Source of the DNA: a virus
Length of the DNA stretch: 40,710 nt
Virus record (IMG/VR): IMGVR_UViG_3300046689_000204
Coordinates: 1 to 40,710 of that record
Direction: 5' to 3' (one strand)
This document shows, piece by piece, positions 3,816-31,762 of the stretch (positions within the stretch are counted from its first letter, which is position 1; each line of letters begins with the position of its first letter). Below the pieces are notes generated by a model. It did no database searches. It was not told the origin of the DNA and saw nothing but the letters and a program-made list of their open reading frames with translations. Position numbers and translations under genes: made by a program.

Positions 3816-3818
3816 ATT

Positions 3819-4010: not shown

Positions 4011-4014
4011 AACT

Positions 4015-11854: not shown

Positions 11855-11860
11855 CCCTGA

Positions 11861-11889: not shown

Positions 11890-11899
11890 CAAGGCATAC

Positions 11900-12517: not shown

Positions 12518-12526
12518 GGAGAAATC

Positions 12527-13207
12527 ATGGTTGCAATGGAAATGCAGCAAGGCTCAATTAACCACGGGCGCAGGTCGGTTGAGAGGTTGGACCCGCGTAC
12601 TCTGACGGGCGAGCCGCTACACATCTTTAACATCTACTCGAATGAGTACACCATCAATCTCGGCACATGCGGCCTGTGGTACATCCCAGCCTGCCCCGAA
12701 GGGCGGGAGTATGTTCGTGCTCCGAAGGCTATCCCCGGAACGATGGAGGAGAACTATCCGCACTTCACCGATGGCGAGGAGTTCCGCGCGCGGGCAAGAG
12801 TCGCAGACGACATTGCAGTAGCCATCCTGGGCACCGACCGCCCAGAGGAAAACATCGCCAACTTCGGCGTCTTCGTTTCGCATAACGCCAAGCCGACACC
12901 GCAGGAGATCGCTGCGGCCAAGAAGCTGCTCATTCCGAAGCTGCAGAAGCAGATTGCACAGGCTGACCAGTACTTCGCGTCTGTCGAGCCGGGCGAGCGC
13001 AAGAGCGTCTACGACGACAAGTTTCTGAGGGCGGCGCGGTATCTGAATATCAAGAAGCCGTGGATGAGCGAGGCGGCGGAGATGTCGGTGTGCCCGTTCT
13101 GCTCGGTTGCGGTAAGTCCCAATGCGGCCATCTGCTCGGGTTGCAATCAGGTTATCAACCAGACGAAGTTCGACGCCATCAAAGCTCGCGTGGCAGGGGC
13201 CAAGTAA
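12527..13207 (+). CDS. hypothetical protein with C-terminal zinc ribbon, 226 aa
   Basis: AAGGAG precedes the ATG. The first about 110 residues are beta-rich, with turns and aromatic residues. A helical region follows (about 125-150, EIAAAKKLLIPKLQKQIAQA), then a compact zinc ribbon with CPFC and CSGC about thirteen residues apart (residues about 188-206). Zinc ribbons in phage head or neck proteins can stabilise a fold or bind nucleic acid. It sits between two presumed connector-region genes and is probably co-translated with them. Function not recognised. Confidence 0.6.
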   Translation: MVAMEMQQGSINHGRRSVERLDPRTLTGEPLHIFNIYSNEYTINLGTCGLWYIPACPEGREYVRAPKAIPGTMEENYPHFTDGEEFRARARVADDIAVAILGTDRPEENIANFGVFVSHNAKPTPQEIAAAKKLLIPKLQKQIAQADQYFASVEPGERKSVYDDKFLRAARYLNIKKPWMSEAAEMSVCPFCSVAVSPNAAICSGCNQVINQTKFDAIKARVAGAK

Positions 13208-14026
13208 GTGCCGCTTACTGACGGGCCTCCTGGGTCTCAAGTTTTCTACACCACAACCGACATCCTGAACTTCGCTCGCATCCTTGTGAACGATGCTCAG
13301 GGTGGGTTGTCGGGGCAGGAACTGTCAGACGACAAGCCGTATACCTGGCCGCTGCTGAACCTGTGCTATGGGCGGCTGGCGAACTGGCTGGAGGATAACA
13401 ACGTCGAGTCGGCAATGTATGCCGAGGCGATTATCCAGTTGCCTGTGAGCGCGACGTATAACGACCCTTCGGCACAGTCGCGGCTGGGCTATGACGGCTT
13501 TCAGGATGCCGCGGGGAACTTCTACGATACTCCCTCTGTCCCTCCTGACATGCTGGAGCCGTTGCAGATGTGGCAGCGGCCCACAGGTCAGAACGTCCCT
13601 TTCTACGAGATGAAGCAGCAGTTGGGAGGGCTGGGCAACGCATGGAACTACGGGTGGAATGGTGGGACATACGGCTCGGTTTATGGGTCATGGGAGTTCC
13701 GTCAGAACAGTATTTATATCTTGGGCGGGGCGTATCAGCCAACCGACCTCCGCATAAGGTACGTGCCTTCGGTGGTGGAGTTGACGCAGCCGACCGCGGA
13801 GAATCCCGACGTTCCGATTATCTGGTTCGCCAAGGCTGGAGAGGCTTTGGCTTACATGATTGCGGCTGAGTTTGCCGAGATCCGCAATGCCCCGAACGCG
13901 GCCGCGTTGCGCATGAAGGCGAATGCAGAACTGGAGATCATCGCCAACCGTTCTGCCAAGCGCGAGAACCGGGCGCAGACAAGGAAGCGGGGCTACGGCT
14001 TCGGGCGTAGGCGGCGGACGCTTTGA
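13208..14026 (+). CDS. head-tail connector or tail adaptor candidate, 272 aa
   Basis: Begins at GTG directly after the preceding stop, with AGGGG upstream. The N-terminal half is largely helical with an early DILNFARILVNDAQGG segment. A Gly/Tyr/Trp-rich loop (about residues 140-165) and a strand region (LRIRYVPSVVEL) follow, then a C-terminal helix and a strongly basic end (KRENRAQTRKRGYG onward). Helix-rich proteins of this size between capsid and nozzle genes are usually portal-bound adaptors of short-tailed phages. That assignment rests on order and composition. Confidence 0.55.
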   Translation: MPLTDGPPGSQVFYTTTDILNFARILVNDAQGGLSGQELSDDKPYTWPLLNLCYGRLANWLEDNNVESAMYAEAIIQLPVSATYNDPSAQSRLGYDGFQDAAGNFYDTPSVPPDMLEPLQMWQRPTGQNVPFYEMKQQLGGLGNAWNYGWNGGTYGSVYGSWEFRQNSIYILGGAYQPTDLRIRYVPSVVELTQPTAENPDVPIIWFAKAGEALAYMIAAEFAEIRNAPNAAALRMKANAELEIIANRSAKRENRAQTRKRGYGFGRRRRTL

Positions 14027-17000: not shown

Positions 17001-17124
17001 GATGAATACACGCGGCAGGAAGCTGTGGGCGAAGCTGGGGCAGACGGGTGTTAGGTACAGCCTAAACAGCGCAACGATTGTGTATACGCCGGACCCGAAC
17101 GCTCCAGTTTCAGGGGTGCGCTAG
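14023..17124 (+). CDS. large beta-rich tail hub or nozzle candidate, 1033 aa
   Basis: The start TTG 14023 overlaps the previous stop. The N-terminal part (about residues 60-125, VVALGINGALYVVRADG) and the C-terminal part (about 760-950, SLHFVTQRGIYYVRQ and GIQWFTGSIPDKVS) contain blade-like repeats typical of the beta-propeller nozzle and stabilisation proteins (T7 gp12 and P22 gp10 types). In between are long Thr/Gly/Ser-rich beta segments that may be inserted immunoglobulin-like domains. The size is larger than those family members, so the central insert seems extra. It likely forms part of the short tail tube. Fold-level confirmation is missing. Confidence 0.6.
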   Translation: MTVKIQAAAYSQFNGLRTDTPPSNCPADHSPDCSDMVFVPNGMATRNPFRATVTLPQEIVYRKEFLCKDGTTQVVALGINGALYVVRADGSYTQVDAVTPGSKVNSVTAYGREYMAFFNDNGPCDAPRQWDGRNLARVSQGGPGAAPSFSAVAVSGTTYEISTITQPAPGFPGQLGNFDGILQSSGPGSTAVGNVVTVYTANARAGHFPGGDPVLTAAFNSGFPVNVVFSGLSDEFGPYNGTQLVTSIGMGVPPFAGATAERWYITFTVDNSSAHNRGGINAGITGQYQITWATLTMATPVPGLTAGSQVPISGASVADYDNTWTITQTLDSGTLRITQTSLSGGTATYHYAVSSGANPTAGQTITITNTLNANGSLNVENRAIDAVVGGSSGTFTIIGFDPSVTFPNTVETGSGETAGTQFIFDPAAIFGDSTGGEIDFAGNAPEMASGTRLAVAFFITETGLTTAVGPIAKFTLPSNTSAIAFSGLPIGPNNVVARGIAFTGANGGNFFFLPIVPQVNGVVLGTSTVVNDNTTSSGTMNFTDQALFGGIAIDIPGNNLFQQVALNLPRGVNWYGDRMLWIGEANTVIGFLNMGMDGGTLSGQTGPLGWTRVGTPSISQTGFMPVLGGPGTISQPAAKTLQGAAILQPNLRYSLRAWLSNGSITATISSASTGFSSTATLTGINYVTANFSAAMPATIPDDMTFSVELGVVLIRDMQMIYADNPNRNPVARMSYVQNPEAYDAETGNIGPNDDSTELRATFEQSESLHFVTQRGIYYVRQIGNTEPSSWFPNRIADKCGALNSNAVVTGRGWALWCGQEGIQWFTGSIPDKVSATIAPTWRNVANVLNIYDDPDFERVYIAYVDKQGTKRGLVADYHEVALGGAVKWCPWNRPFDWVCDSASGTIFVIGPTFYRLDTAEGTTDDNLGDIGGYYVFAAAGSSAWQKNYSQAFFEIAGLGLLTPFVYASTLDTITETLKGQQLSTLIDSVAEWPMNTRGRKLWAKLGQTGVRYSLNSATIVYTPDPNAPVSGVR

Positions 17125-17649
17125 ATGGCAAGGTTTCAGGTTCCGAACAAGGGTTACATTCGCAACAAGGATAGCCAGTTGGGTAATGCGTTGGAGAAGA
17201 TAGAAGACGCCATCAACGCACAGGCAGACCAGGGCAACACCGACCCGACCGGAGCGCAGCAGGCAGCACCATCAGCCATTAGCCAGATGAGCGTGACCGC
17301 TGCCGATGGGATTCACGACATTCAGATCACCGACAATGCTCCGGCGTATCGTGGCATCAACTATTTTGCTTACTACTCGCAGACGCCTGACTTTCAGAAC
17401 TTCCACAAGATTGATATGGGAGCATCGCAGAATCACCGCGTCTTTCTGGGGCCGGGGAAGTATTACTGGAAATCGAATCATGCCTATCCCAGCTCGCCAC
17501 CTTCGACAGACGTGTATCACGGCGGCTCAACACCGGAGGCAGTAGGAACGGGATCGCATATCGGGCCTCCGATGCAGCAGAACCAAGGGACGGCGGCGTT
17601 TGGGGCAACGACTTATAGAAATTCTTCTATACCGCCAATTCGCAAATGA
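17125..17649 (+). CDS. tail-associated beta-rich protein, 174 aa
   Basis: Begins at ATG right after the previous stop. A short helical N-terminus (about residues 15-35) leads to a Thr/Ser/Gln linker and a domain with ITDNAPAYRGINYFAYYSQT, which resembles a fibronectin type III-like strand pattern, then a Gly/Pro/His-rich tail. Such small adhesive or bridging proteins often sit on tail tubes. It ends in an ATGA overlap with the GNAT-like gene. No family recognised. Confidence 0.5.
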   Translation: MARFQVPNKGYIRNKDSQLGNALEKIEDAINAQADQGNTDPTGAQQAAPSAISQMSVTAADGIHDIQITDNAPAYRGINYFAYYSQTPDFQNFHKIDMGASQNHRVFLGPGKYYWKSNHAYPSSPPSTDVYHGGSTPEAVGTGSHIGPPMQQNQGTAAFGATTYRNSSIPPIRK

Positions 17650-18032
17650 TTAGAGAGTTTCGCGCATCGGATGAGCCGATTCTTAGAAAGCTGCACGCAG
17701 AGCAGGGATTCGATTACGAGTTTCCCGACCTGAGCCAGTTTGAAGCGGTGCTGGTTGCGGTGGATGAGAATGATCTTCCGGTGCAAGCGGTGGCGGCGCG
17801 GAAGACAGTTGAGGTTTACATGCTGGGAGATCCGAAGTGGAGAACCCCGGCGTGGCGGTTCGATGTGCTGAAGCTGCTGCATGAGGGGATGCGGCGGTTT
17901 CTGTTGCAAAAGGGATTTACGGATGCGCATTGCTGGATTCCTCCAGTGGTGGAGAAGGCATTCGGCAGGCGTCTGGTAAAGCAACTTGGGTGGGTGAAAT
18001 CGCGGTGGCAATCGTACTGCAAATATCTGTGA
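17646..18032 (+). CDS. GNAT-like acetyltransferase fold protein, 128 aa
   Basis: The protein starts with the GNAT-like pattern MIREFRASDEPILRKLHAE, followed by a strand of hydrophobics (VLVAVDENDLPVQAVAARKT), a helix and a C-terminal region ending in GWVKSRWQSYCKYL. The overall layout resembles N-acetyltransferases that move an acetyl group from acetyl-CoA. A clear acetyl-CoA Q/RxxGxG/A loop is not obvious, so activity may be lost. GNAT-like proteins occur beside tail genes in several short-tailed phages. It overlaps the preceding stop and is followed by ejection-like proteins. It may be a virion protein or an enzyme that modifies one. Confidence 0.55.
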   Translation: MIREFRASDEPILRKLHAEQGFDYEFPDLSQFEAVLVAVDENDLPVQAVAARKTVEVYMLGDPKWRTPAWRFDVLKLLHEGMRRFLLQKGFTDAHCWIPPVVEKAFGRRLVKQLGWVKSRWQSYCKYL

Positions 18033-18047
18033 TGGTGGGGGTTTACT

Positions 18048-18614
18048 TTGGCGCGTGATACGGCGGCAGCGGCGGGACAAAATTCGAAGACTGCGCAGGG
18101 GATGGCGGGGAGTTACGGAGACCGCGCCTCAAGCACGTACAACATCCTTACGCCAACTCTGAACAAGATGGCGACGAACCCGCAGGGGTTTGACCAGCAG
18201 ACCATGAACAACATGAACACGGCGGCGCAGCAGTCGATTGGCGGGGCCGTGGCGGGCACGGTGGGGCAAGGGAACCTGCAGGCAGCGCGTACCAACAATG
18301 CGGGCGGGTTTGCTCCGGCTGCGACTCAGGCGGCGCATGATGCTACAGCGCAACTGTCAGACGCGGCGCTGGGCGTGCAGAACCGCGACGCCATGCTGAA
18401 GGAACAGCACCGCTCTGAAGGCATCTCCGGCCTTGAGAATATGTACGGAACGAACGCGAGCGCGGGAGAGAATGCGCTCGGCTTATCCAACCAGTCACTC
18501 CAGACACAGAGCCAGGCACGGCAGAATGGATGGCTTCAGAACACGCTGGGCGTCTGGAATCAGATTAACAATAGCGCAGCCGCGGCCGCTAAGTTGATGG
18601 GAGGTGGAGCATAA
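18048..18614 (+). CDS. ejection or internal virion protein candidate, 188 aa
   Basis: This Ala/Gln/Asn-rich, helical protein begins at TTG 18048 behind a G-rich ribosome site. It has repeated small-residue segments (GGAVAGTVGQGNLQAARTNN) and a C-terminal Ala-rich helix ending GGGA. Such composition matches internal virion proteins of P22-type phages that enter the cell ahead of the DNA. TAATG overlap links it to the next, larger gene of the same character. Confidence 0.55.
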   Translation: MARDTAAAAGQNSKTAQGMAGSYGDRASSTYNILTPTLNKMATNPQGFDQQTMNNMNTAAQQSIGGAVAGTVGQGNLQAARTNNAGGFAPAATQAAHDATAQLSDAALGVQNRDAMLKEQHRSEGISGLENMYGTNASAGENALGLSNQSLQTQSQARQNGWLQNTLGVWNQINNSAAAAAKLMGGGA

Positions 18615-20113
18615 TGGGCAATCCTCTTATTGACGATTACAAGCGCCTGCAGCGTCTCCCCGTTCCCGATGTGAACATGGCAGCCATGCCTGCGGCTGCA
18701 CCTCCTCCCTCTCCTCCAGTGGGGCCGAACCCGCTAACAGGCGTTGTCTCGCCTGCGCTGTCTGTGCTGAAGCAGCCGAATCAGGCAGCGCAGAACACGC
18801 AAGATAACCTCCTGCTCCACCAAAACGAACTGAAGAGGCTAGACAGCAGCGGCTCGGGGATTTCGCAGATCCAAAACAAAGGTCTGCGAACAGCGGCACG
18901 CATCGGTGACACAGCGTTACGCATCCTCCTTCCCGGAGCAGAGGCCCTAACCCCTGGAACAGAAGGGAACCATCAGCGTCTGCAAGGCGTCGAGCGGGCA
19001 CGCATCGGGCAAGACATCGGCAATGAGCAGAACCTTGCTCAGGTTGGACAGACTGAGGCAAACACCAATTACCTCAATCAGCGGCCTGATATTGAGGAAG
19101 CAAAGATAGAGCAGAAGCACCAGATGAGCCTCGACAGGCTCGCCGGTGTTGCGGCTGCTCGCGGCCTGAAGATGACCACCGGGCCCGATGGAATTCCCAC
19201 GTTCGAGGACGACCACGAGTCACAGGCATTCAAGGACCATCAGGCGCTCTCGGCAATGCACCAGGCGACCGCAGACAAGTCTGCCATCATGGCCGATATC
19301 CAAAAAAACCACTACATCCCCGGTACGCCAGAATGGACCGAAGCGCAGAGAAAATTGCAGCAGGTAGACCAAAAGCTGCAGGTTGCGATGGGGAGCCTAG
19401 GTCTGCGGGCAAAGGGCTTGCAGCTTCGCCAGAACAACCAGAACGCCGATTTCTACGGCACCGGACCCGATGGCAGTCCGCTTCCGGGTACGCCTCAGAT
19501 CACCGACGACCAGGGCAACGTTACCAACCTCGGACGCAGGAACGCGAACACGGCAATCAGGCAGCAGGGCAAGGTTGTTACCTTCAACGACCTTTCCGGC
19601 TCCGTGACGCATCTCCGCGATGCAATCAAGGCATATGAGGCGACGGGCGGCGACCTTTCCGACGCAACCCTCGCAGCGGCGGCGGCAGACCCGAATTCGA
19701 CAGTCGGCAAGATCATTCAGGGCAAGCTGGTTACCGGAGGGCTTTCAAAGGAAGCAATCAACCTCCTCAATGCCCAGCGGCAGACGATGGAGCAGGCGGG
19801 CATTCTGCGCTCTACAACGGGCGGAACGTCTTCAGAGGCTGGAGCGCAGCGCATCTTGGAAGTTGTGCCGAAGTTCGGCAGCGATACCAACGCGAGCGCA
19901 TACAACAAGCTGAACCAGCAGGAAGAAGTGCTCAGGCGGCTTGCTCCAGGTCAGGTTGGCGTTACGGGCGGTGCGGGCGTGAAGCACAGAGGCGGCGCGG
20001 GCGGCGGCCAGACGTACAAGCAGACCGCATCCGGGCAGGGCGGTCACAAGATTGGCTCCAACGATGGCGGCAACACTTGGTTTGATGTGCAGACCGGAAA
20101 GGAAGTGAAATAG
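18614..20113 (+). CDS. ejection or internal virion protein candidate, 499 aa
   Basis: A Pro-rich N-terminus (about residues 20-45) is followed by long helical, Gln/Asn/Ala-rich stretches (for example about 125-165 and 195-260) and a Gly-rich C-terminal part. No enzyme motif is visible; in particular I do not see a lysozyme or transglycosylase signature. Size, composition and order (second of three such genes) fit phage DNA-ejection proteins that build a channel across the envelope. The GTG of the next gene overlaps the stop. Confidence 0.55.
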   Translation: MGNPLIDDYKRLQRLPVPDVNMAAMPAAAPPPSPPVGPNPLTGVVSPALSVLKQPNQAAQNTQDNLLLHQNELKRLDSSGSGISQIQNKGLRTAARIGDTALRILLPGAEALTPGTEGNHQRLQGVERARIGQDIGNEQNLAQVGQTEANTNYLNQRPDIEEAKIEQKHQMSLDRLAGVAAARGLKMTTGPDGIPTFEDDHESQAFKDHQALSAMHQATADKSAIMADIQKNHYIPGTPEWTEAQRKLQQVDQKLQVAMGSLGLRAKGLQLRQNNQNADFYGTGPDGSPLPGTPQITDDQGNVTNLGRRNANTAIRQQGKVVTFNDLSGSVTHLRDAIKAYEATGGDLSDATLAAAAADPNSTVGKIIQGKLVTGGLSKEAINLLNAQRQTMEQAGILRSTTGGTSSEAGAQRILEVVPKFGSDTNASAYNKLNQQEEVLRRLAPGQVGVTGGAGVKHRGGAGGGQTYKQTASGQGGHKIGSNDGGNTWFDVQTGKEVK

Positions 20114-21528
20114 TGCCACTGCCGAAGGGTTACACGCTGGACGCTGGGCCTAAACTTCCTCCGGGTTATACGCTAGATCAATCGTCTCCGTCATCAGTGG
20201 CGGGCGCTGGCGACTACGGCGTACCGCAGTTGGCCGGTCATCCAGCGGCATCCATGACGCCTGCCATTCCCGGCTATGACGCCAACCCCGGACCCGTAAC
20301 GAACTTCGCCAAGGGCGCGGTAAAGGGTGCGGCAAGTACGGCAAACAGCCTAGGCCACCTCGCGGTGCCTGATTGGGCAGTCAATGCAGCGGGTGGAGAT
20401 GCCAACGCCATCAACAAGCGGGCCGATGCGCAGTTAGCGCCTCACGGCACGGCTCAGGCTATCGGCAAAGGAGCGGAGCAGGTTGGCGAGTTTCTAGTCC
20501 CAGGTCTAGGGGAAGAGGCAGCAACTGCCAAGCTGGGGAAATTTGCACCACTAGGCCGCATGGCTTATCAGGGGCTAACCTCGGGCGCGGTGAATAAGCT
20601 TCAGGGTGGCGATTTCTCGACAGGCGCCGCTACCGGACTGGTTGGCGGCGCACTAGGAGAGGGCTTGCGTTCCGTAGCCCCGAAGATTGCAGAGTCTGCG
20701 TTGAACATCCGCAAGCTGGACCGCGCATATAAGGGCAGCGGCGCAATTGGGCGGGCCATCCTTGACGAGACGGCGGGGTTTACTCCCGCCGCAGTATCCG
20801 ACAGCGCGGAGGGCGTTCTGGGCAAATTGAACCCCGAACTGGAGCATATTGTCGGCAACGGCGGAACTTCTCCCGTGAACATGGCCGGGCCGCGAGCAGT
20901 TATTGACTCTGCAAGGAATACGGCCATTGCTCGCAACGCGGCGGGAAGCTACAAGCAACTAGAGCCGATGGCAAGGCATTTGACTGAAGAGTTCGCCACG
21001 GGTGCGCCAATTCCGTCCGTCCTTAGGCCGATGGATGCACTCAACCTAAAGCGCGGTTTCGGGGAAGAGTTTATCCATCACTGGAATCCTGAAACGATGG
21101 CTGGGACAAAAGGGACAGCGGCAAAGGTCTATCACGAGCTTGCCAATGAGATCCACACTTCAGTACCTGGCAGCGCGGCGATCGACACCCGCATTTCGAA
21201 CCTGATTCCCGTAGCTAAACGAGCAGCAAGCGAAGAACTGAATGCTCCGACAACGCAGAAGCTGTTCCATAAGTTTGCCGCACCCACCGGGGCGCTTATC
21301 GGCGGAATTACCGGAGGCGAAGAAGGATACAAGCACGGAGGGGTTACTGGAGCAGTTGGCGGTGCTGCGGCTGGTTTGGTTGCTCCAATGTTGCTAGCTT
21401 CCCCAACCGGTCAAATGGTGCTCGCTCGCGGGTTCAATTCGGCGGGTGGTCGCAATCTGCTGTTCTCTCCGCTCAAGGGCGGCGCACTTCAGCTAAATCG
21501 CCCCGGTAACAAGGCAGACAACCAATAA
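20113..21528 (+). CDS. ejection or internal virion protein candidate, 471 aa, with C-terminal hydrophobic region
   Basis: The first 25 residues contain two copies of an LPxGYTLD unit (LPKGYTLD and LPPGYTLD). The body is Ala/Gly-rich and helical. The C-terminal third has glycine-rich hydrophobic stretches (GALIGGITGGEEGYKHGG and GAVGGAAAGLVAPMLLAS) that could insert in a membrane. It is the last of three ejection-like genes. Membrane-active glycine zippers fit a role in forming a DNA-conducting pore. The end overlaps a small - strand gene on the opposite strand. Confidence 0.55.
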   Translation: MPLPKGYTLDAGPKLPPGYTLDQSSPSSVAGAGDYGVPQLAGHPAASMTPAIPGYDANPGPVTNFAKGAVKGAASTANSLGHLAVPDWAVNAAGGDANAINKRADAQLAPHGTAQAIGKGAEQVGEFLVPGLGEEAATAKLGKFAPLGRMAYQGLTSGAVNKLQGGDFSTGAATGLVGGALGEGLRSVAPKIAESALNIRKLDRAYKGSGAIGRAILDETAGFTPAAVSDSAEGVLGKLNPELEHIVGNGGTSPVNMAGPRAVIDSARNTAIARNAAGSYKQLEPMARHLTEEFATGAPIPSVLRPMDALNLKRGFGEEFIHHWNPETMAGTKGTAAKVYHELANEIHTSVPGSAAIDTRISNLIPVAKRAASEELNAPTTQKLFHKFAAPTGALIGGITGGEEGYKHGGVTGAVGGAAAGLVAPMLLASPTGQMVLARGFNSAGGRNLLFSPLKGGALQLNRPGNKADNQ

Positions 21529-21672
21529 CGCGACTGCGGCAAAGAAAAAGTGGCACGTTTCGCGTGGCCAACTCTTCTTAGTCATGACCTCGACCGCGAC
21601 TGCCCAAAGCGAAAAGTAAAGAAATACGCCCAGTAAGAGCAAAAGGAACATGGTGGCCCCTCGGAGCACCAT
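21493..21672 (-). CDS. small two-TM membrane protein, 59 aa
   Basis: On the - strand, between the ejection and tail-fibre genes, an ATG with GGGAG four bases upstream opens a 59-aa frame. Helix one is MFLLLLLGVFLYFSLWAVAV (after a short basic start) and helix two is FFFAAVALLVVCLVTGAI, joined by a basic loop (TKKSWPRETC). Two well-formed helices are unlikely by chance, although hydrophobic frames do occur opposite Lys/Glu-rich DNA. A later start at the internal ATG (GAGGGG upstream) would give 52 aa. It could be a holin-type or exclusion protein. It follows another tiny TM gene by one base. Confidence 0.42.
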   Translation of the reverse strand: MVLRGATMFLLLLLGVFLYFSLWAVAVEVMTKKSWPRETCHFFFAAVALLVVCLVTGAI

Positions 21673-21673
21673 T

Positions 21674-21790
21674 TTACTCCCGCCCCTGCCCATTGCGGGG
21701 GTTTTTATGCGGCCAACGCATGATTCTGCGGCGCACATAGCTCCCTAGGACGACTGCGGCGATCAGCAGTGCAACCCATATGACGGCCAT
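21674..21790 (-). CDS. tiny single-TM protein, 38 aa
   Basis: This 38-aa frame has one clean membrane helix (VIWVALLIAAVVLGSYV) followed by an Arg-rich cytoplasmic-type end (RRRIMRW) and a polar tail. Its stop lies one base before the ATG of the next - strand membrane gene, suggesting a two-gene unit. The ribosome site is weak, so the start is uncertain and the call tentative. A + strand terminator is embedded in the same DNA. Confidence 0.33.
   Translation of the reverse strand: MAVIWVALLIAAVVLGSYVRRRIMRWPHKNPRNGQGRE
21683..21706 (+). terminator. rho-independent terminator after the ejection genes
   Basis: CCCC-T-GC (21683-21689) pairs with GCGGGG (21695-21700) around a CCATT loop, followed by G and TTTTT (21702-21706). 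It lies 155 bases after the end of the ejection block and about 110 bases before the tail-fibre cassette, separating the two on the + strand. Confidence 0.65.
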
Positions 21791-21816: not shown

Positions 21817-22989
21817 ATGACGCGATTCCCGAAATGGGTACTGTTGCTGGCCCTTGCTGCACCGATGTACGCGCAGACGCTGGGAAGTTACACCGCGAAC
21901 GCCACGCAGCCCGCCAATAACGTGCCTGCTGGTGCTGCGGCGGCCATTATGACGGTGCCCTTTGCCACCATTACGGTGTGTGCCTACCCCGCGGTGAATT
22001 CGCCATGCACTAATGCGGTGCCCATCTTCTTCGACCAGGCGGGAGCGCAGCCCCTTACTCAGCCGATCACGACAGACGCGACGGGCCGCTTTGCCTTCTG
22101 GGTGGCATCAGGAACCTATTCCTACAGCGTAATGAACCAGGCAGGCGCGGTGGTGGGGACATACCCCTTTACAGTAGGCGGGACAGGTGGGGGTGGCTCG
22201 GGCTGCACGCTTGGCTCGGTTCCCGATACGGCGGTGGTCTACAACAATGCCGGAAACTGCGCAGGGTCTCTTAATTTCATAACCAATAGCACAGGCAATG
22301 CTTATATCAGCGGCGGCGGCAGTCTGGAGGTAGATTCTCCGACTTCTGGAAGTGATTATTGGCTATTCAACGGGGACCACACTTATGTGCAGTCCGACGC
22401 TCATGGGCCAATCCTGCCGGGAATTGATTTCATCGTTTCAGACGCTTACTTTACAGGACCGGGTACTGGAATAATCCCCATTTTCATCAGCTATGACGTG
22501 GAGCGAGATGGAAAGAATGGTATCGGTGTTGAGGTTATCGGCGGGGCTGGAGGAGCAGCCAACAGCCTTGTTGGAGTAGAAGTTGACGCCCTTGCTGTTC
22601 CGGGTTCGGTAGTTAATGCCACGGGGTATTTTGCAGGGATGCGCGGCGATGTAGCGAGTGGAGAAGAATTCAACTACATCGCTGAAACTAGAAATGGTGG
22701 AACACCATCAGCAGGTTATTGCGATTTCATGGCACGAGATAGTGGAGTTCATACACTCCACGAATCCCTCGGCTGCGGCCCAACCCACACAAACACCTTC
22801 AACGGCACAGTCCAGATATCTACGGCAACATTCTCCACCCTCCCTGCTTGCATTAGCGGATTGGAAGGAACGATGCGCCCTGTCACCGACTCCACAACGA
22901 ACACGTGGGGCGCGACGATCGCGGGCGGAAGCACGAATCACGTCCTCGCCTATTGCGACGGATCAGCTTGGACTGTAGCGGCTAAGTAA
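21817..22989 (+). CDS. secreted tail-fibre-like protein with signal peptide, 390 aa
   Basis: A GAGGAG ribosome site precedes the ATG. The N-terminus is a typical Sec signal: basic start, hydrophobic core (VLLLALAAP), then MYA-Q as likely cut site near residue 19-20. Residues about 25-125 form a module found in phage tail fibres, with [19 protein letters not shown] (strand and aromatic pattern) and an ending GTYPFTVGG, followed by a Gly-rich hinge. The remainder is beta-rich, with paired cysteines near the C-terminus. It is paralogous to the next protein in this module. Location after virion genes indicates a receptor-binding fibre, but a signal peptide is unexpected for a cytoplasmically assembled tail. 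Confidence 0.7.
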
Positions 22990-23015
22990 CACCCCAACCC
23001 CACACAGAGGTCATA

Positions 23016-25607
23016 ATGAAACTTCTCCGCTACGCCGGACTCTTCGCGGCGCTCGCTGTAACCTGCCACGGGCAAGGCTTCCGCTTCGATACGCGGGTTA
23101 CGACGGTTGCGACCAATGTACCCACAGGCGCGAGTGCTCCGGTACTGGCCTATTCCAAGGCCAATATCAAGGTATGCACCACCTCTGCCTGCTCTTCGCT
23201 GGCGACCATCTATCTCGACCAGGCGCTGACGGTGCCGACCAGCAGCCAGTTCCTGACAGACACGGCGGGTCGGTTCGGGTTCTGGGCGGCGACGGGCACC
23301 TACTGGTATCAGGTTTCGACCACGCGGGGAGTCATTGGGACGTATCCAGTCACGCTGGGCGGTTCGGGCGGTGGTGGTGCGGGTTCGGTTACGAATGTTG
23401 GTGGCGGATCGCCGCTGTTTGCTGTCTCCAACCCAACGACTACGCCAAGCCTGAACCTGCAGAATGCCGCGGCGCATACCGTCTTCGGCAACCGTACCGC
23501 AGGCAGCGCACTGCCAAGTTTCTTTACCCTGACATACAGTGATATTTCAGGCAGCATCCCACTCTTCGGCTCCGCGAATAGCGGCGCTGTTCCGGCTTCG
23601 GGCGGCGGAACGAGCAACTTCCTGCGGGCTGACGGATCATGGGCACCTGCGGGCGGCGGTGGCGGTGGGGCTACCTTCCCCGGCAGTCCTGGTGTCGTCT
23701 ACAACACTTCGGGTGTAGCCAGCCGTAATGCAACTTTTACCGACATCGTTCAACTCTGGGCAAGCGGTTCCTGCACTGGATTCCTCAAGGCAGATGGAAC
23801 CTGCCCGATCATCCCTTCGGCGGTCACACCAATCCAGATATCCATGCCGACCTCTACGATCTCGGCTAACTCCTGCACTGGGGCTGCAACAGCATCCATG
23901 CCAGGCGTAGTTTCCTCTACGGCCTTCGCTGCTGCCTTCAGCACAAGCCCAGCGGGAAGCGGATGGGATGGAGGGCTGGAGTTTCAAGCATGGCCCTCGA
24001 CAGATACAGTCAACTGGCGGGTATGCAATCACACCGCATCCAGCATTACACCCACCGCAACGATTCTCAACCTTGCCGCGGGCGGCGGCGGAGGTTCGGG
24101 TGGGGGAAGCGTAACCAGCTTCTCTGCGGGTGCGCTATCTCCTCTGTTCACCACTTCGGTGGCAACGAGCACGACCACGCCATTCCTTCAGTTCAATCTT
24201 AGCAATGCGGCGGCGCATCGGTTCTTCGGCAACAACACCGGCTCGACGGCAGCCCCAGATTATGTGCAGATCCAGTACGGCGATCTTGGCGGCACGGTGC
24301 CGACGTGGAACCAGAGTACGACGGGCAACGCGGCCACAGCCACGGCCCTGGCTTCGGCTCCGACGCTCTGCCCGCTAGGTCAAGCACCCACGGGCGTTCT
24401 AGCCAACGGCAATGCTACGGGCTGCGCTGTAGCTGGCGGAATCTCTGGCCTGACGACGGGGTATATTCCAAAGGCCGCGTCCTCCACCTCGATTGCAAAT
24501 TCACACCTTGACGATGGCGTAACCACTGCCAGCACGATCACATCCACAGAGCCTATTGTCGTCAACGCTTCGGGCAATGGCTTTGCCGCGGTGGAAGGAA
24601 CCGCACCATCTGGTGTAGCGTCCAGCGATCTGCTCTATCCCGACTCCACGGCTCACCGCTGGGTGATGAACAACAACAACGCCGGGGCGGTGAAGGCGGT
24701 CGGCATTGCGTCGGCGGGAACCTCCGGCCATTCGGTAGTTCTAGCCTCTAATGGAGTTGACATTGTAGATGGCGGTGCCCCGAGTTCCTCGGGCTTTCCC
24801 ATCACCCTAGGTTCAACCTCCGTCGCGGCGAGCAGCACGACCACAACCATCGCAGGACTCACCCTAACTGCCCCGACATTCACGACGCCTGCATTGGGAA
24901 CCCCCGCATCGGGTGTACTGACGAACGCAACGGGCCTCCCCCTCAGCACTGGCGTAACGGGCAACCTCCCAGTGGCTAATCTCAACAGCGGAACCAGCGC
25001 GTCAAGCTCTACATTTTGGCGTGGCGATGGTACGTGGGCAGCCCCCGGAGGAGGCAACGTCTCCAACACGGGCACCCCGACAAGCGGGCAGGCTGCTGAG
25101 TGGACGAGCGCAACGGTCATTCAAGGCGTAACCGTGACCGGTACGGGAAACTACGTGAAGGCCACCTCGCCTACGCTGGTAACCCCAATCCTCGGGACTC
25201 CGACATCTGGAACGCTCACCAATGCAACAGGACTACCCATCAGCACCGGAGTATCAGGGCTTGGAACTGGCGTAGCGACTGCCTTGGCAGTGAATACGGG
25301 TACGGCGGGAACCTTCGGCGTATTGATCGCCAGCGGAACGTCTGCACTCGGAACCAGCGCGATCGCTTCAGCGACTTGCGCAACGGTAGTCACAACGACA
25401 GCAACAGGCGCGGCGTCCACTGACGCGATCACCTGGAACCCTAACGCTTCTATCAAAGCTGTTACGGGCTACACGCCAGCGACCACTGGCGGCCTGACAA
25501 TTGCCGGATATCCGACAACGAATGCGGTCAACTGGGATGTTTGCAACTGGACTTCATCGAGCATTACCCCAGGAGCCGTAACCCTGAACTGGCGGGTCGT
25601 GCGATGA
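23016..25607 (+). CDS. large secreted tail-fibre-like protein with signal peptide, 863 aa
   Basis: Begins behind GAGG with a signal-like N-terminus ([12 protein letters not shown]). Residues about 22-120 repeat the fibre module of the preceding protein ([19 protein letters not shown] then GTYPVTLGG). Several shaft-like repeats follow: AAAHTVFGN and AAAHRFFGN units, FLRADGSWA and FWRGDGTWA knots, and two [15 protein letters not shown] units. Two related beta domains appear, one near the middle and one at the C-terminus ([14 protein letters not shown] and [14 protein letters not shown]). This is the mosaic build of long tail fibres. The stop overlaps the next ATG. Its repeats imply a trimeric shaft, and function is likely receptor binding or display. 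Confidence 0.7.
24893..25254 (+). repeat. diverged direct repeat encoding fibre shaft units
   Basis: The coding DNA around 24893-24955 and 25191-25254 carries two diverged copies of one unit (protein [20 protein letters not shown] and [20 protein letters not shown]). Bases differ at third positions, so this is an old duplication kept for the protein repeat and not a recent tandem copy. Confidence 0.7.
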
Positions 25608-26644
25608 AGAAATACTTATTCGCGCTCTTCCTGTGCGCTACGCCTGCATTCGCGCAATACGTCCCCGCCGGGGCCGTGTTCCCGACTGCCGTCGCCACGG
25701 TATGCCCCAGCATCTCCATCGGTGGCGGCAATATCCGAGAGTTCTGTACATCCTCTGTCACGTGGCACGCGGCTACGAATGGCTCGGCCATCACGGTTGC
25801 TGCGATTGGCGCAGGCGGCGGTGGCTGTGGTGGCGGATTAGCAGGTGGAACGAATGTTACCGGAGGCGGTGGTGGCGAGTACAGAGTCGACAGTGTCAGC
25901 TACACGTCAACTTCCAACATCACTGTAACCATAGGTTCGGCGGGAACAGGCGGAACGACCTCAGGCACGGGCGGCAATGGAGGTGACTCATCATTTACCA
26001 CTTCGGTAATCGCTAAGGGCGGCAAGGGTTGTGACGGTACGAGCACCCCGGCAGCAGGCGGAACAGGCGGGACAGGAGCTACGCACTTCAACGGCGGAGC
26101 AGCCGGAACCACTGCTTCTCACTCGGCATTTGGCGGCGGTGGAGGAGCGGCTGGGCCTAATGGAGTAGGCGGGGCCGGCGGTCCCGGCAATACAGGTAGT
26201 GGGGCCAACGGAGCGGCAGGTGGTGGCGGTTCGGGTGGTGGTGCAGCAGGTAGCGGGCCTCCCGGAAATGCCAATATTGGCGGCGGCGGCGGTGCAAACT
26301 ATACGGCATCGCAAGCCGGAGGCGCAGGCTCGAACACGCTTGCCGCTGGAAATGGCACCGGAGATTCGAATGGCGCATCGGGTGGCGGTGGTGGAACAGC
26401 ACAGGGTGGAACTGGCGGAAAAGCCTTTGCTGGAGGCAATGGCGGCGCTGGACAAGAGTGGGATGCTACTCACGGCTCTGGCGGTGGCGGTGGTGGTGGC
26501 GGCGGCTCGTCTGTGGGCATTGGCGGAGATGGCGGGACTGGTGGATTGTATGGCGGCGGTGGTGGCTCTGGTGGGTTCAGGTCAACGAATGGATTAGGTG
26601 GGCCGGGCGGACAAGGGATCGTTGTAATCACCTACCACCCTTAG
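25604..26644 (+). CDS. secreted glycine-rich adhesin-like protein, 346 aa
   Basis: The start ATG 25604 overlaps the previous stop (ATGA). The 18-residue Sec signal ends in TPAFA-Q. After a short Cys-containing region, residues about 65-335 are dominated by Gly runs ([28 protein letters not shown]) with Ser, Thr and Ala. The C-terminus ends [10 protein letters not shown], a common cap of glycine-rich tail proteins. Glycine-rich cores of this type build polyglycine II bundles in the S16 gp38 adhesin. A distal fibre-tip adhesin is therefore likely. The frame reads through without interruption. Confidence 0.65.
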
Positions 26645-26802
26645 CGCATTAGCCCGCCCAGCGAGGAAAAGGCCCGCACGAATCTGTGCAGGGCGGTAGG
26701 GGATGCCACCAAGTAAGTCAGGGTAGCGGCACTGACTGCTAACGAGATGGAAAACAGGTGTTTAGGCATCGGCGGTTCTGAGCGTATCACAGGAGGCATT
26801 TC

Positions 26803-27258
26803 ATGGGCGTCAAAATAATCATCCTCTGGATGGCGGTGACGTTGCCTGCCTGTGCCCAGACGTGGACGAAGGTTGCGGTAGAGAACCCCGCCACAACGGT
26901 AACGCTGCCGTCTGGTGCCGCCTATCGCTTCGGCGCGACCGCGAGCACCAGCGGGGCGTGTGGGGCGCTGGGATGGCTCTCTGGCTTCTCTACCGGGGTT
27001 CCTCTTCCTGCCTATTACACCAGCTTCGCCTGTGATCCCGCGCCGAATGTGGTGAAAGAGCTGGACGTTCTGCAAACAGCCTCTCCGCAGACGGTAAAGC
27101 TGACGACCAATGGGCAGACCTCCACTGTGACAGTACCCGCGGTTGCTGTGACTCAGGGCGCAACGAAAGCCACGGTTGTAGCCACGTTTACCTGCACAGT
27201 CAACCTCTACTCGGACGGCTCTTATGCCTCCACCTCCTGCACAAAGGCTGGCAAATGA
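26803..27258 (+). CDS. secreted Cys-containing protein, 151 aa
   Basis: GGAGG precedes the ATG. The N-terminus (IIILWMAVTLPACA-Q) is a signal peptide; LPAC could also be read as a weak lipobox. The mature part is beta-rich and Thr/Val/Ala-rich, with cysteines spaced through it (GACGAL, FACDPA, FTCTVN and SCTK) that could pair outside the cytoplasm. Its stop overlaps the start of the large spike-like gene (ATGA), so they are probably made together. It may be a fibre or spike partner or chaperone. Function not recognised. The 158 bases before it hold no supported + strand gene. Confidence 0.6.
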   Translation: MGVKIIILWMAVTLPACAQTWTKVAVENPATTVTLPSGAAYRFGATASTSGACGALGWLSGFSTGVPLPAYYTSFACDPAPNVVKELDVLQTASPQTVKLTTNGQTSTVTVPAVAVTQGATKATVVATFTCTVNLYSDGSYASTSCTKAGK

Positions 27259-30200
27259 AAAAGCTCCTGCCGTACCTCGTAATCATTTACTCCTGCCTTG
27301 GATGGGTAGCGCAGGCTCAGGTTGTCGTAACCACCCCGCCATATAGCAAGTACAACTATCCCGGCCATGTGCTTGCCGGTTCGGAGCGTCAAGAGCTTGC
27401 CCGCGTATGGGGCGGCAACGCGCAATGCACCGCCTACAGCTTCAGCGGAAGCGTCCTGACCCTGACCTGCAATAATACCTACACCGCGGGCGATGTGGTC
27501 TGGGCCAATGGCTTTACTTCGTCGGCGCTGGCGTATCTGAACTATCACCCATATACGATTGTCTCCCGCACGGCTACGACCATTGTGCTGAGTTACAGCG
27601 GCGGCTCAGGCTCGGGGACGGAGGCTAATGCCTTCCTCTTCAAGACTCAGGGCGCGGGATACACGGGCTTGGGTACTGCGGAGATTATCAGCACGGGCAG
27701 CGACGCCTCCGAAACCTTTCGGCTTTACAGCGAAGATCACACCGCTGATTCCGGCCTTGTGGCTCATCCGACCATCGCGCATGTGCCTGCATACTTCAAC
27801 TTTCAGGTTGGGCCGGTTGCGGGCGTTACTTCGACCACCGGATCAATCACAAGCAGCAACTTCGCCATCCATTCCACGGTTGAGTTTGACGTGAAGTGGA
27901 CAAGCGACGACGACCCCACCAAGTTCAGCCTTCACCACTACGTTGTAGGCGCGAACGGCGGCGGCTATGCAGGCGTGCTCGGCAAAGCGTTCGCCAGCCC
28001 CGGCTTCAGGAATGTCTTTACTGATCGCTATATCCCGCTGAAGGGCGAGGTCTACGGCAACACCGATCAGCACATGGACTGGACGATTGTTTCGGCTCCA
28101 GGCGGCGGTGATGCAACTCTGGCTTATGGCACCTTCCCACAGCCCGTCTTCTACTCGGGAACCGTAGCGGGGAAGTACTACATCAAAGCCTGCCCGCACG
28201 TCGATTCGTCCACCAACGCCTGCACTGAAATCACCATCAATGTGTTTGACCACACGACCCTGCCCGCTGCCAATGCGGACAAGGCCGAGCAGGTTCCTTG
28301 CCCCGCTGGGAATACGGATGGCGTGACGTGGGGAACCATCTACGAGATTGGTCCTACGCAGACCTATCACAGCCTGCTGGATATTCCGCAGACGCTTGTT
28401 GGCCCCGTAAAAGTAAGACTGCACAATGAGGGAGCGAACGGAAGCCCCACCGAGTACCACAATCAGGTGCAGATAAACACACCTTCGGGCGGGCCATTCA
28501 CGAACCGCAAACCAGCCTTTGAGCTGTGCGGCGTGCCCAATCCCACGACGGGTGAACTGCCAATCATCGACGGCGCTAATGCCACGGTAAATTCATGGGC
28601 TTCGCCGTACATTGTCGGCCCTTATGCGCTGTTCGGCCTCACCAACGCCAGCGTCGGATTCGGAACCTTCAATGGGCAGACACAGCCATTTTCTTATGTG
28701 CTAATCTCCGGCGTTCACGTTCGCAACGTAACCCCTGGTTACAACTACAACGCCGTTACTGGCGGGACTGCCGCATGGGGCGGTTCAATGGGCATCCGGC
28801 CTACTGGTATTCAGAACTTCAACAAAATCGGTGTTCATGACGAGAGGGTTGCCAATTCAAACTTCGATGACTGCAACCCCCAGCAGAGCGGATGGCAGGC
28901 TTGCTCAATAGACACTTTTTATGAAGGCAACCACATGGAGGCATATGGGAGTAACGGTTCGTTCCTCGACCACCCCTTCTATCTGCAGGCCGATCGCGCT
29001 GCTGCCTTCCTGAATCTTGAGGACGGGTCGGTGGCGGGATCTGAGGGAACCTCATTCTTCTCTGACCGCGGCTCGCGTAGCTTCCATATGTACAACCGCC
29101 TCCAGCCGACTGGCTCGAACACATCAGCAAGCTATGGCGGAGGGCACTCAGAGCGGCAAGATTCTTACAACTATGACAATGAGGACGAGTTCTATGGCTA
29201 CCAGGGAGCACCGAACTGCAACACGCTCTACGCCAGCGCCCCGTTCTGCCTTGGCGTAACCGGAGTCAACCCGGTTGACTGGTTTGCGGCTCGACTGGAA
29301 GAGCACGCGCAGACTGACTTCGTTATCGGCAACGCGCTCTATTATCAGTACGGCGTGGCTGCTATCGGTTCGGCCATGACGCACAACTTCGAGTCATTCC
29401 AGACCTATGCTTACCCCGCCGCCGCCTACTATCCCGGCAACCTGACCCAGAAGCAGTGGGTTAGCTACAACACCATCATTTACAACCCCACGGCGATGGC
29501 TGCCGGAGGAATTCGGACGTGGGAGAACATCAGGGTTGGGTTCGCTGGCCTTGAGCCTCCAGACAGATGGTTCTGGCCTTTCTACTATCCCCAAGACTTT
29601 TGGGCCAACAACATCATGCCCAGCTATGACAACACCAACTGTCAGGCTGGAGGCATTGGCACATGCAACGCCTTCACGTATCTGGAAACCGCATTTGTCA
29701 GCTTTCAGAGCAACATGACGACAGCGGGCGGCTATACCCCCGGCTCAACTGTCAACGTCACCTATTCCAACGCGCCACCTCAGGCTGGTCTCTATATCGA
29801 GCCGAGCTTCTTTGATGTATGGGGCAACCCCGATCCAATCAATAAGCGATTGAACGGCTGGACGGCACCGAACTTCATCAATTACTCCATCTATCCGGTC
29901 GACCTGTCCTCGCTAAAGCTCGTTTCTGGCTCTCAGGCCATCGGGCAGGCCACACCGCTGACGGGTGTGGCGGCGATGTATCCGCCCCGCTTCAACGCGG
30001 TGGACGCGAACATGAGTCCGTTTACCCTGCGCACAGACCTCACGACGCTGGGAGCCTATGACCCGAGCGGCGGCCCTACGGTGGTATCTATCGCGGTAAC
30101 TCCTAATCCGCTATCGACGCCAGTCAGCACGAGCGGAACGCTGGTCTGCACGGCGACCCTGAGCGATTCATCTACGCGGGCCTGCTTCGCCCCAGCCTGC

Positions 30201-30404
30201 ACGTCCACCAATACGGGCAGCATGACCATCTCGGGCCTCAACTGGACGGCTACAAGCACGCCTGGGACGGGAACGCTGAACTGCACGGCTGAGAGCCTGA
30301 CCGCGCCTGGAGATGCCTTTACGGTGACCGGAGCCGCGCCGACTCAGACCATGAAGATAGGCGGAAACGTGTCGTTTTCAGGGTCTGTAGCAATCCAGCA
30401 ATAA
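27255..30404 (+). CDS. large secreted tailspike-like beta-helix candidate, 1049 aa
   Basis: The Sec signal (about residues 1-22) ends WVAQA-Q. Residues about 25-330 are beta-rich domains. Residues about 370-800 hold many turn-rich strands with Asn and Gly (for example QPFSYVLISGVHVRN), which suggests a right-handed parallel beta-helix like those of tailspike depolymerases. Catalytic residues cannot be named. About 940-1030 is a bacterial immunoglobulin-like domain (VVSIAVTPNPLS onward). There are many cysteines, unusual for a cytoplasmic virion protein and in keeping with export. It is the largest protein of the window and closes the fibre cassette. It could cleave surface glycans or act as an adhesin. 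Confidence 0.62.
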   Translation: MKKLLPYLVIIYSCLGWVAQAQVVVTTPPYSKYNYPGHVLAGSERQELARVWGGNAQCTAYSFSGSVLTLTCNNTYTAGDVVWANGFTSSALAYLNYHPYTIVSRTATTIVLSYSGGSGSGTEANAFLFKTQGAGYTGLGTAEIISTGSDASETFRLYSEDHTADSGLVAHPTIAHVPAYFNFQVGPVAGVTSTTGSITSSNFAIHSTVEFDVKWTSDDDPTKFSLHHYVVGANGGGYAGVLGKAFASPGFRNVFTDRYIPLKGEVYGNTDQHMDWTIVSAPGGGDATLAYGTFPQPVFYSGTVAGKYYIKACPHVDSSTNACTEITINVFDHTTLPAANADKAEQVPCPAGNTDGVTWGTIYEIGPTQTYHSLLDIPQTLVGPVKVRLHNEGANGSPTEYHNQVQINTPSGGPFTNRKPAFELCGVPNPTTGELPIIDGANATVNSWASPYIVGPYALFGLTNASVGFGTFNGQTQPFSYVLISGVHVRNVTPGYNYNAVTGGTAAWGGSMGIRPTGIQNFNKIGVHDERVANSNFDDCNPQQSGWQACSIDTFYEGNHMEAYGSNGSFLDHPFYLQADRAAAFLNLEDGSVAGSEGTSFFSDRGSRSFHMYNRLQPTGSNTSASYGGGHSERQDSYNYDNEDEFYGYQGAPNCNTLYASAPFCLGVTGVNPVDWFAARLEEHAQTDFVIGNALYYQYGVAAIGSAMTHNFESFQTYAYPAAAYYPGNLTQKQWVSYNTIIYNPTAMAAGGIRTWENIRVGFAGLEPPDRWFWPFYYPQDFWANNIMPSYDNTNCQAGGIGTCNAFTYLETAFVSFQSNMTTAGGYTPGSTVNVTYSNAPPQAGLYIEPSFFDVWGNPDPINKRLNGWTAPNFINYSIYPVDLSSLKLVSGSQAIGQATPLTGVAAMYPPRFNAVDANMSPFTLRTDLTTLGAYDPSGGPTVVSIAVTPNPLSTPVSTSGTLVCTATLSDSSTRACFAPACTSTNTGSMTISGLNWTATSTPGTGTLNCTAESLTAPGDAFTVTGAAPTQTMKIGGNVSFSGSVAIQQ

Positions 30405-30463
30405 CTCATTTGTTATGAAGTCCTGCTGTTTTTAGAGCCTAAAGGTTGTGCCAAGGGGGTTCT

Positions 30464-31762
30464 TTGCCAACACCGCGACTGTCTGAAGCAAAGATGCGGG
30501 CAGTAGAAGCAGATATCCGATCACGCCAATTCAGCAGAGACCAGATCCGGCTCCGCAATGGGGTGGGGAGCAGCACGATTGACGATATGAAGCTAGCGAT
30601 GGGACTCTCAGGGCCATACAAAGACCCCGGAGCGGTCTCACGGCCTCCTGTAGACGAACTAAGACAGTCCGACGAAATCAACGGCGACAACTGGACTATC
30701 TCACTCCCAAAGACGCGCATCTGCACGCTCGACCAACTGGTAGAGCACTGCAAGATTGATTTGCAGATATGGGAGGTTGAGCGGTTCGTCTGCAACAAGT
30801 GGGAGGTTGGGGCCAAGGTCAATGACAAGCTGGTTGCCGAGCCGCTGTTTCAAATAAAGGCATGGCTAAAGCAGAAGCGGCACATCGTTGACGCTAGGGC
30901 TGAGATTGAGGCACTGAAGGCCGAAGCCAAGAAGCACATGTTTGTCCCGAAGCCTGTCATCTACACCACGCAGGACTCAGACAATCTGCTGGAGCTTTTG
31001 ATTCCTGACCTTCATGCGGCCAAGCTTGCATATTCCAAAGAGACAGGCTTCCAGAACTACGACACCGGCATTGCTATAGAGACCTACGACCGGGCGATAG
31101 ACAAGCTGATTCAGAGGGCATCCAGAGCCAATATATCCAGGATTGTGCTCGGTGTAGGCAATGACGTATTGCAGGCCGACAACGTCCAGGGCACGACATT
31201 CGGCGGGACGAAGGTAGACGTAGACTCCCGCTATCGCAAGAGCTACAAGGAAGTCCGCATCATGTTCTGCCGGAACATCGAGAAGCTGCGCATGATCGCT
31301 CCGGTAGACGTGAAGCCTATACCCGGAAACCACGACACTCTATCAACCTTTACTCTGGGCGATTCCCTTGAGTGCAAGTTTGACGGCTACCCCGATGTGT
31401 TCGTAGACAACCAGCCTATCCCCCACAAGCTAGTCGCCTGGGGCAAAGTGCTCCTCGCCCTGATGCATGGTGACAAGGGTAAGCAGGCCGATTACGGTAT
31501 CTGGCTGGCTACAACCTACCCCGAGCAGTTTGCAGCAGCCCTTTTCCGCGAGATCCATGTGGGGCATAAGCACACCGTCTCTCTAGCGGAGAAGTTTGGA
31601 ATCAGGGTTAGGGGCTTCGGCGCTTTGTGCCCTCCTGATGAGTGGCACGCCAACAACCTATTTACCGGCAACCTGCGCATTGCTGAGGGCCTTGTGTGGA
31701 ACAAGCACGAGGGCCTGACCAATCATTTCTTCCACACCGAAATTGATGAGAGGGCCGCATGA
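30464..31762 (+). CDS. calcineurin-like metallophosphoesterase
   Basis: The product has the metal-binding motifs of this superfamily in order: LLIPDLHAAKL (DxH), GVGNDVLQAD (GDxx-like, here GND), IPGNHDTL (GNHD), LALMHGDK (histidine) and HVGHKHT (GHxH). The first about 50 residues look like a helix-turn-helix (SRDQIRLRNGVGSSTIDDMK), so DNA may be the substrate, as for SbcD or Mre11-type nucleases. I start at TTG 30464 because AAGGGGG lies four bases upstream; an earlier TTG at 30446 lacks a ribosome site. The stop overlaps the next ATG. It lies between the fibre cassette and the attachment site. Confidence 0.85.
   Translation: MPTPRLSEAKMRAVEADIRSRQFSRDQIRLRNGVGSSTIDDMKLAMGLSGPYKDPGAVSRPPVDELRQSDEINGDNWTISLPKTRICTLDQLVEHCKIDLQIWEVERFVCNKWEVGAKVNDKLVAEPLFQIKAWLKQKRHIVDARAEIEALKAEAKKHMFVPKPVIYTTQDSDNLLELLIPDLHAAKLAYSKETGFQNYDTGIAIETYDRAIDKLIQRASRANISRIVLGVGNDVLQADNVQGTTFGGTKVDVDSRYRKSYKEVRIMFCRNIEKLRMIAPVDVKPIPGNHDTLSTFTLGDSLECKFDGYPDVFVDNQPIPHKLVAWGKVLLALMHGDKGKQADYGIWLATTYPEQFAAALFREIHVGHKHTVSLAEKFGIRVRGFGALCPPDEWHANNLFTGNLRIAEGLVWNKHEGLTNHFFHTEIDERAA

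Follow-up and report, generated by a model that had tools for sequence, protein, structure and literature searches.

Why should the fibre- or spike-like genes of a phage carry signals for export, when textbook accounts place the whole assembly of tailed phages in the cytoplasm? The question is raised by the virus record IMGVR_UViG_3300046689_000204, which was analysed over its whole length of 40,710 nucleotides (hereafter, the window), and specifically by five consecutive genes (genes 1 to 5, Table 1), each of which had been noticed in a preliminary description to begin with its own Sec signal peptide. By gene content, the window is a podovirus-like record of 40.7 kb. Its plus strand encodes a methyltransferase, a terminase, a major head protein and proteins of the tail side, with tail proteins at 13208-17124, and its minus strand encodes an integrase. 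The five-gene cluster sits after the last virion genes and 5' of a DNA-repair-type exonuclease gene, which is the position where tail fibres or spikes are expected. We favour, with modest confidence, the reading that the five genes specify a receptor-binding apparatus built for export, the spikes of which would dock on the virion at lysis. What is new here is that the signals of genes 1 and 2 are predicted to lead into a tailspike head-binding domain.

The N-termini were examined by a signal rule of our own, which, in a benchmark using 45 annotated E. coli genes, detected all 13 counted as secreted proteins or lipoproteins and falsely called one of the 32 others (an inner-membrane protein with a score of 29.5, the one false call at or above 27, the remainder being below that score). 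The rule was positive for 5/5 genes of the cluster and for 0/16 preceding plus-strand genes (2309-21528), which comprise methyltransferase, packaging and virion genes, and the chance of such a split is 1/C(21,5), that is, 5e-5. All five N-termini have a basic n-region, a hydrophobic h-region and small residues at -3 and -1, with Gln at +1 after the predicted signal peptidase I site in every case. Thus, the shared signals, with a small residue and then Gln at the junction as originally described, were borne out as real, systematic and unexpected, and the recommended signal prediction on all five N-termini was positive throughout by this rule, which is not SignalP. Purine-rich Shine-Dalgarno sites precede genes 1, 2 and 4 (GAGGAGAACT-ATG, AGAGGTCATA-ATG and AGGAGGCATTTC-ATG, respectively), and genes 3 and 5 start in an ATGA overlap with the preceding stop; therefore, the hydrophobic stretches do not lie upstream of the true starts, and wrong start codons were rejected as an explanation. 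The frame of gene 3 also has an upstream TTG at 25541, without a Shine-Dalgarno site. Lipoproteins were rejected as well, neither LPAC (gene 4) nor VTC (gene 2) being a proper lipobox, as were twin-arginine translocation (Tat) signals, the RR motif being absent from the five N-termini. Export of the five proteins via Sec is well supported as a prediction from these features.

The domain that directly follows the signal in genes 1 and 2 contains an invariant cysteine pair (alignment A3). The comparison of A3 with a second domain set (A2) by hhalign gave a probability of 95.1% and an E value of 3e-8. The A2 profile matched 9VYG in its tail spike chains (E 0.009), and there was a weak match to the head-binding domain of the Pam1 tailspike, 7EEQ (E 0.32). 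In tblastn against annotated phages, a protein with signal and domain matched gp12 of Tunturi_1 and Tunturi_2, isolated phages of Tunturiibacter (Acidobacteriota) (PMC11924767). Further matches, confined to the domain, were to tail spike or fibre proteins, at their N-termini, from Serratia, E. coli, Klebsiella, Erwinia and other phages. The AlphaFold2 (AF2) model of the gene 1 domain had a mean predicted local distance difference test score (pLDDT) of 79, and Foldseek ranks 1-22 for this model all fell to Pan3, P22, Sf6 and Pam1, either to tailspike head-binding domains or to tail complexes, with Pan3 as the closest structure (E value of 2.4e-4 and Z score of 9.8, 2.2 A over 80 residues). Pfam gave no match for genes 1, 2 and 5. 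Taken together, fold, sequence and position agree on a predicted tailspike head-binding domain in both genes, by model in gene 1 and by alignment in gene 2.

The cysteine pair accompanies the export signal. In the A2 scan, a signal was present directly 5' of the domain in 32/32 loci, but the scan pattern includes one of the cysteines and is therefore biased for cysteine. An unbiased scan was made with A4, the cysteine-free second half of the domain; after removal of duplicates, ten loci had the signal and both cysteines, six had neither, and none was mixed (1 in 8008 by chance). In this count, the single 'C1' mark for the signal-less locus L163 lies upstream of the start of that gene, and the rule-positive calls at L163 and L170 are of sequence windows inside the domain and were treated as false. 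The pair was also absent from ten signal-less isolate homologues, those of Serratia, Klebsiella and E. coli phages among them. One contig, IMGVR_3300047160_014297 (L007/L027), carries both forms side by side (L007:9206-12879): a signal-bearing fibre with both cysteines and, encoded immediately after it, a signal-less paralogue, a spike whose copy of the docking domain has Ala at both cysteine places. Cysteine pairs that occur only with export signals are what periplasmic disulphide formation would produce, and a putative disulphide is supported by this association of the pair with the signal.

Relatives of the window point to export as a maintained property. In a near-twin contig (L002/L009), all five genes have signals, that of gene 4 being of the same sequence class although an earlier form of the rule did not call it. 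Gene 5 of this contig is 97.3% identical to that of the window outside the first 22 residues versus 11/22 within them, and gene 3 is 78.6% identical outside the signal versus 6/23 within it; in both genes, the differing N-termini are signals in either contig, and the exchanged signals keep Gln in the same junction region. The replacement of two signals by unrelated ones with function apparently kept is expected under selection on export. We also used A1, an alignment of the tip at the C-terminal end of gene 1, to scan 2.9 million viral contigs, in which the tip was found at 70 loci, and 84,980 genomes, in which it was found at six, all of them in metagenome-assembled genomes (MAGs) of Acidobacteriota. 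Signals were present in 37/64 tip-bearing open reading frames (ORFs) versus 60/566 other plus-strand ORFs (Fisher P 4e-17), and Gln was at +1 in 27 of the 37 and 43 of the 60, respectively; many of the 60 look, from the gene lists, like adjoining fibre genes. In L031, L053 and L077, signal genes stand in arrays of some four or more, and where a tip-bearing ORF lacks a signal, its N-terminus is often fibre-like. In L025, genes for a baseplate wedge protein, a structural protein and a short tail-fibre protein are directly followed by a signal-bearing fibre. Short signal-less fibre-like proteins lie immediately 5' of the exported fibre at L025:5903-6502 and L125:11201-11641, and these may be cytoplasmic adaptors that dock the exported part. 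Because of the six MAG loci and the matches to the Tunturi phages, the host of the window phage is probably a member of Acidobacteriota. Neither window genes 1 and 5 nor the L077, L066 and L042 fibres had a match in tblastn against annotated phages, and a survey of Tail_P2_I synteny in 297 Acidobacteriota genomes gave 13 matches, too few for a controlled comparison; many such matches may be injection systems, not prophages.

The residue exposed by cleavage appears to follow the host. The junction was of the AxA-Q type in 36/47 fibres, and, by a rule blind to Gln, Gln was also the commonest +1 residue of chromosomal signals in four Acidobacteriota genomes (19/58 in samples L101-L120; 8/21, 3/12, 3/12 and 5/13 by genome, tied in one), compared with 2/13 in an E. 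coli region. The published Q-rule is that of Bacteroidetes, and Acidobacteri- and Proteobacteria are absent from the main text of that report (PMC5837995); the present counts suggest that a similar preference reaches beyond Bacteroidetes into Acidobacteriota. Since Gln is the commonest +1 residue in Acidobacteriota signals too, the phage signals look fitted to the cleavage preference of the host. A plant-type glutaminyl cyclase (PF05096) was found in 42/149 Acidobacteriota genomes and 3/14 control genomes, and our guess is that the mature Gln is cyclised to pyroglutamate.

The same layout is present in cultured phages, among which Tunturi_1 to Tunturi_4 were compared. Tunturi_1 and Tunturi_2 each have five signal-bearing genes (gp12, gp13, gp14, gp16 and gp17), which lie in the virion region between the tail and lysis genes, 5' of the endolysin, and have an A^Q junction in 4/5 cases in either phage. 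In Tunturi_1, for which Tunturiibacter psychrotolerans X5P2 serves as laboratory host, the predicted mature N-termini are QTAAY (gp12) and QTTGA (gp13). Window gene 2 matches Tunturi_1 gp13 (E 5e-6), and the C-terminus of gene 5 matches gp17 (33% over 114 aa, E 1e-5). Between gene 4 and gp16 (150 aa), there was no significant sequence match; the two are similar in size and position, just 5' of the large last gene. Tunturi_4 has two signal genes (gp113 and gp114) beside signal-less fibre genes, and no signals are present in the Manatee Spring phages, in which part of Tunturi_1 gp17 has a match. The main text of the report on the isolates does not mention signal peptides, tail fibres or mass spectrometry (PMC11924767).

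Based on these results, we propose the following sequence of events. Late in infection, the five proteins would cross the inner membrane, signal peptidase I would cut before Gln, as the junction pattern supports, the Gln may cyclise, and the cysteine pair would form its disulphide in the periplasm. Spike-less virions in the cytoplasm would meet the finished spikes at lysis, and the spikes would dock on the short tail of the virion through the head-binding domain, a step supported for genes 1 and 2 by homology and by the model; the products of genes 3-5 could be further adhesins or enzymes that dock on the first spikes or on the tail. Docking would come after lysis because, up to that moment, virion and spike would lie on opposite sides of the inner membrane. 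Known tailspikes are added as the final step. Among the possibilities raised in the preliminary description, attachment to virions after lysis is thus the one now favoured, on account of the docking domain behind the signal in genes 1 and 2.

Several points weigh against this proposal. Neither virion proteomics nor cryo-EM for any of these phages was found in the open-access literature, and the presence of the proteins in particles is therefore unproven. The signals were called by our own detector. As unrelated immunoglobulin- or prealbumin-like rows reach Z scores of 7-8 in the structural comparison and the fold is a common one, fold alone would not decide the identity of the domain. No head-binding domain was found by sequence match in genes 3, 4 and 5, and the spike nature first suggested for the 1049-residue product of gene 5 was not established, its AF2 model (pLDDT 27) being discarded. 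In Tunturi_3, no signal was present among the genes checked, fibre genes included; therefore, export is not obligatory in Tunturiibacter phages. Finally, the tip is also present in exported proteins that Acidobacteriota chromosomes encode beside polysaccharide genes, and parts of such proteins can serve outside virions.

The last point leads to the alternative that survives best, unlikely as we consider it, namely, that the exported proteins act free of the virion, like WceF of Pantoea, as polysaccharide-modifying enzymes or adhesins around the infected cell and aid the spread of progeny through biofilm. WceF is a precedent: this bacterial protein has a tailspike fold, is exported via Tat and is encoded in an exopolysaccharide operon (PMC7949094). 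Two Acidobacteriota proteins with signal and tip resemble it in context, one having a pectate-lyase fold and lying beside a flippase family gene (L014:1539-3113) and the other lying near a GDP-mannose dehydratase gene (L012:4183-6162). The annotation of Tunturi_2 gp14 as a pectin lyase and the lack of a recognised docking domain in genes 3-5 would also suit free action. However, the head-binding domain retained in genes 1 and 2 and in Tunturi_1 gp12 would be of no evident use to a free enzyme, which, moreover, would be released by lysis without any signal, and no other spike or fibre gene was recognised in the window or Tunturi_1. The A2 domain profile was found in 0/396 Acidobacteriota genomes, a weak empty answer as the scan had no positive control. 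The five N-termini have no twin-arginine motif, and the neighbours of the cluster are virion genes, not a polysaccharide operon.

Display or secretion of the proteins around infected cells or lysogens, where they would occupy receptors and exclude superinfecting phages, is improbable. The window phage does encode an integrase, and its receptor-binding proteins, if held in the envelope, could block receptors, several different adhesins covering several of them. This reading, which takes up the lysogen display or shedding considered in the preliminary description, is weakened by the occurrence of the same five signals in Tunturi_1 and Tunturi_2: clear plaques were obtained from the isolates, and a recombinase or integrase is annotated in Tunturi 3-5 only (PMC11924767). 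In addition, the genes belong to the late virion region and show no recognised outer-membrane anchor, and the docking domain would be left without a role.

It is very doubtful that the hydrophobic N-terminus is not an exporting one and is retained as a membrane- or tail-binding segment, with assembly remaining cytoplasmic as it is for known tailspikes. The complete n-h-c layout with a small residue at -1 and, in most cases, Gln at +1, the +1 preference shared with host chromosomal signals, the swapping of signals between the twins with their class kept, and the cysteine pair that accompanies the signal all argue against it. Cargo unrelated to the phage life cycle (picked-up host secreted proteins or a chimeric contig) is hardly credible, even with the same tip module in host chromosomes, given the same order and position in the near-twin, similar arrays in distant viral contigs and sequenced isolates, the docking domain in genes 1 and 2 and, against a chimera, the tail-module synteny in isolates.

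Table 1. Features of the five-gene cluster, with positions in the window
Feature	Position	Strand	Remarks
Gene 1, exported tailspike/fibre	21817..22989	+	390 aa; signal, head-binding domain and C-terminal tip module
Gene 1, predicted Sec signal peptide, Gln at +1	21817..21873	+	signal rule; Shine-Dalgarno site
Gene 1, predicted tailspike-type head-binding domain, Cys55/Cys64 pair	21874..22191	+	AF2 model, Foldseek, alignment
Gene 1, C-terminal fibre tip module, ~55 aa	22822..22989	+	profile scans
Gene 2, exported fibre	23016..25607	+	863 aa; signal and gene 1-type head-binding domain; match to Tunturi_1 gp13
Gene 2, predicted signal peptide, Gln at +1	23016..23072	+	signal rule; Shine-Dalgarno site
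Gene 2, predicted head-binding domain, Cys54/Cys59	23073..23375	+	member of alignments A3, A5 and A6
Gene 3, exported, glycine-rich adhesin type	25604..26644	+	346 aa; PF21722, E 2e-7; phrog_863 tail, E 2e-9
Gene 3, predicted signal, Gln at +1	25604-25654	+	signal rule
Gene 4, exported small protein	26803..27258	+	151 aa
Gene 4, predicted signal MGVKIIILWMAVTLPACA^Q	26803-26856	+	signal rule
Gene 5, exported large protein	27255..30404	+	1049 aa; C-terminal part matches Tunturi_1 gp17
Gene 5, predicted signal MKKLLPYLVIIYSCLGWVAQA^Q	27255-27317	+	signal rule

Around the cluster, a small hydrophobic ORF lies on the opposite strand in the gap ahead of gene 1 (21493-21738, minus strand), and the exonuclease-type gene directly 3' of the cluster (30446-31762) has counterparts of the same annotation in the virion-to-lysis region of Tunturi_3 (gp29) and Tunturi_4 (gp23). 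A short acetyltransferase-like gene is present within the virion gene module (17646-18032), likewise at L011:7382-7810, and genes annotated as acetyltransferases are similarly placed in Tunturi_1 (gp34) and Tunturi_3 (gp5 and gp22).

The combination of a Sec signal, a docking domain and a cysteine pair found only in exported forms suggests an assembly split across the inner membrane. If this is true, it would account for the ability of phages to use receptor-binding proteins that fold oxidatively and would give virion maturation a final step outside the cytoplasm, and pipelines that annotate such genes as secreted adhesins or host genes would be missing spikes of soil phages. More broadly, it is quite possible, without our calling it probable, that widespread soil phages finish their virions outside the cytoplasm, with spike-less particles inside, disulphide-bonded and Gln-capped spikes in the periplasm and docking only at lysis, the signals following the cleavage preference of the host and the cysteine pair of the docking domain occurring only where it is exported. 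The preliminary description had suggested an unreported mode of fibre deployment, and within the open-access literature, no published description of exported, signal-bearing phage spikes was found.

The window proteins share with the podovirus tailspikes (P22 gp9, Sf6 gp14, Pam1 7EEQ and Pan3 9VYG) the post-signal domain of gene 1 (modelled) and gene 2 (aligned) and a place at the tail end of the virion module in a podovirus-like genome, but they add a Sec signal and a conserved cysteine pair, and their C-terminal parts are unlike that of P22 gp9. The spikes or fibres of Serratia phages Hera and MQ-4, E. coli ep3, Klebsiella KA2-1 and Erwinia TropicalSun have a homologous N-terminal domain (tblastn E values down to 4e-9), which, however, starts approximately 15 residues after Met and has neither signal nor cysteine pair. 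With Tunturi_1 and Tunturi_2 gp12-gp17, the cluster shares five signal-bearing virion-region genes and the similarities of gene 2 to gp13 and of the gene 5 C-terminus to gp17, whereas the gene bodies are mostly unrelated in sequence. WceF of Pantoea stewartii is likewise a tailspike-like protein with an export signal, but the signal is of the Tat type and the gene belongs to a bacterial exopolysaccharide operon, not a phage; the loci L014 and L012 may similarly reflect exchange between phage spikes and host exopolysaccharide loci. Finally, the Q-rule proteins of Bacteroidetes and the Q-rule genes of Porphyromonas gingivalis phages (PMC5837995, PMC10367356) include phage genes with Sec signals that expose Gln; the function of those phage genes is unknown and they belong to Bacteroidota, whereas the genes described here would encode spikes with a docking domain in phages, probably, of Acidobacteriota.

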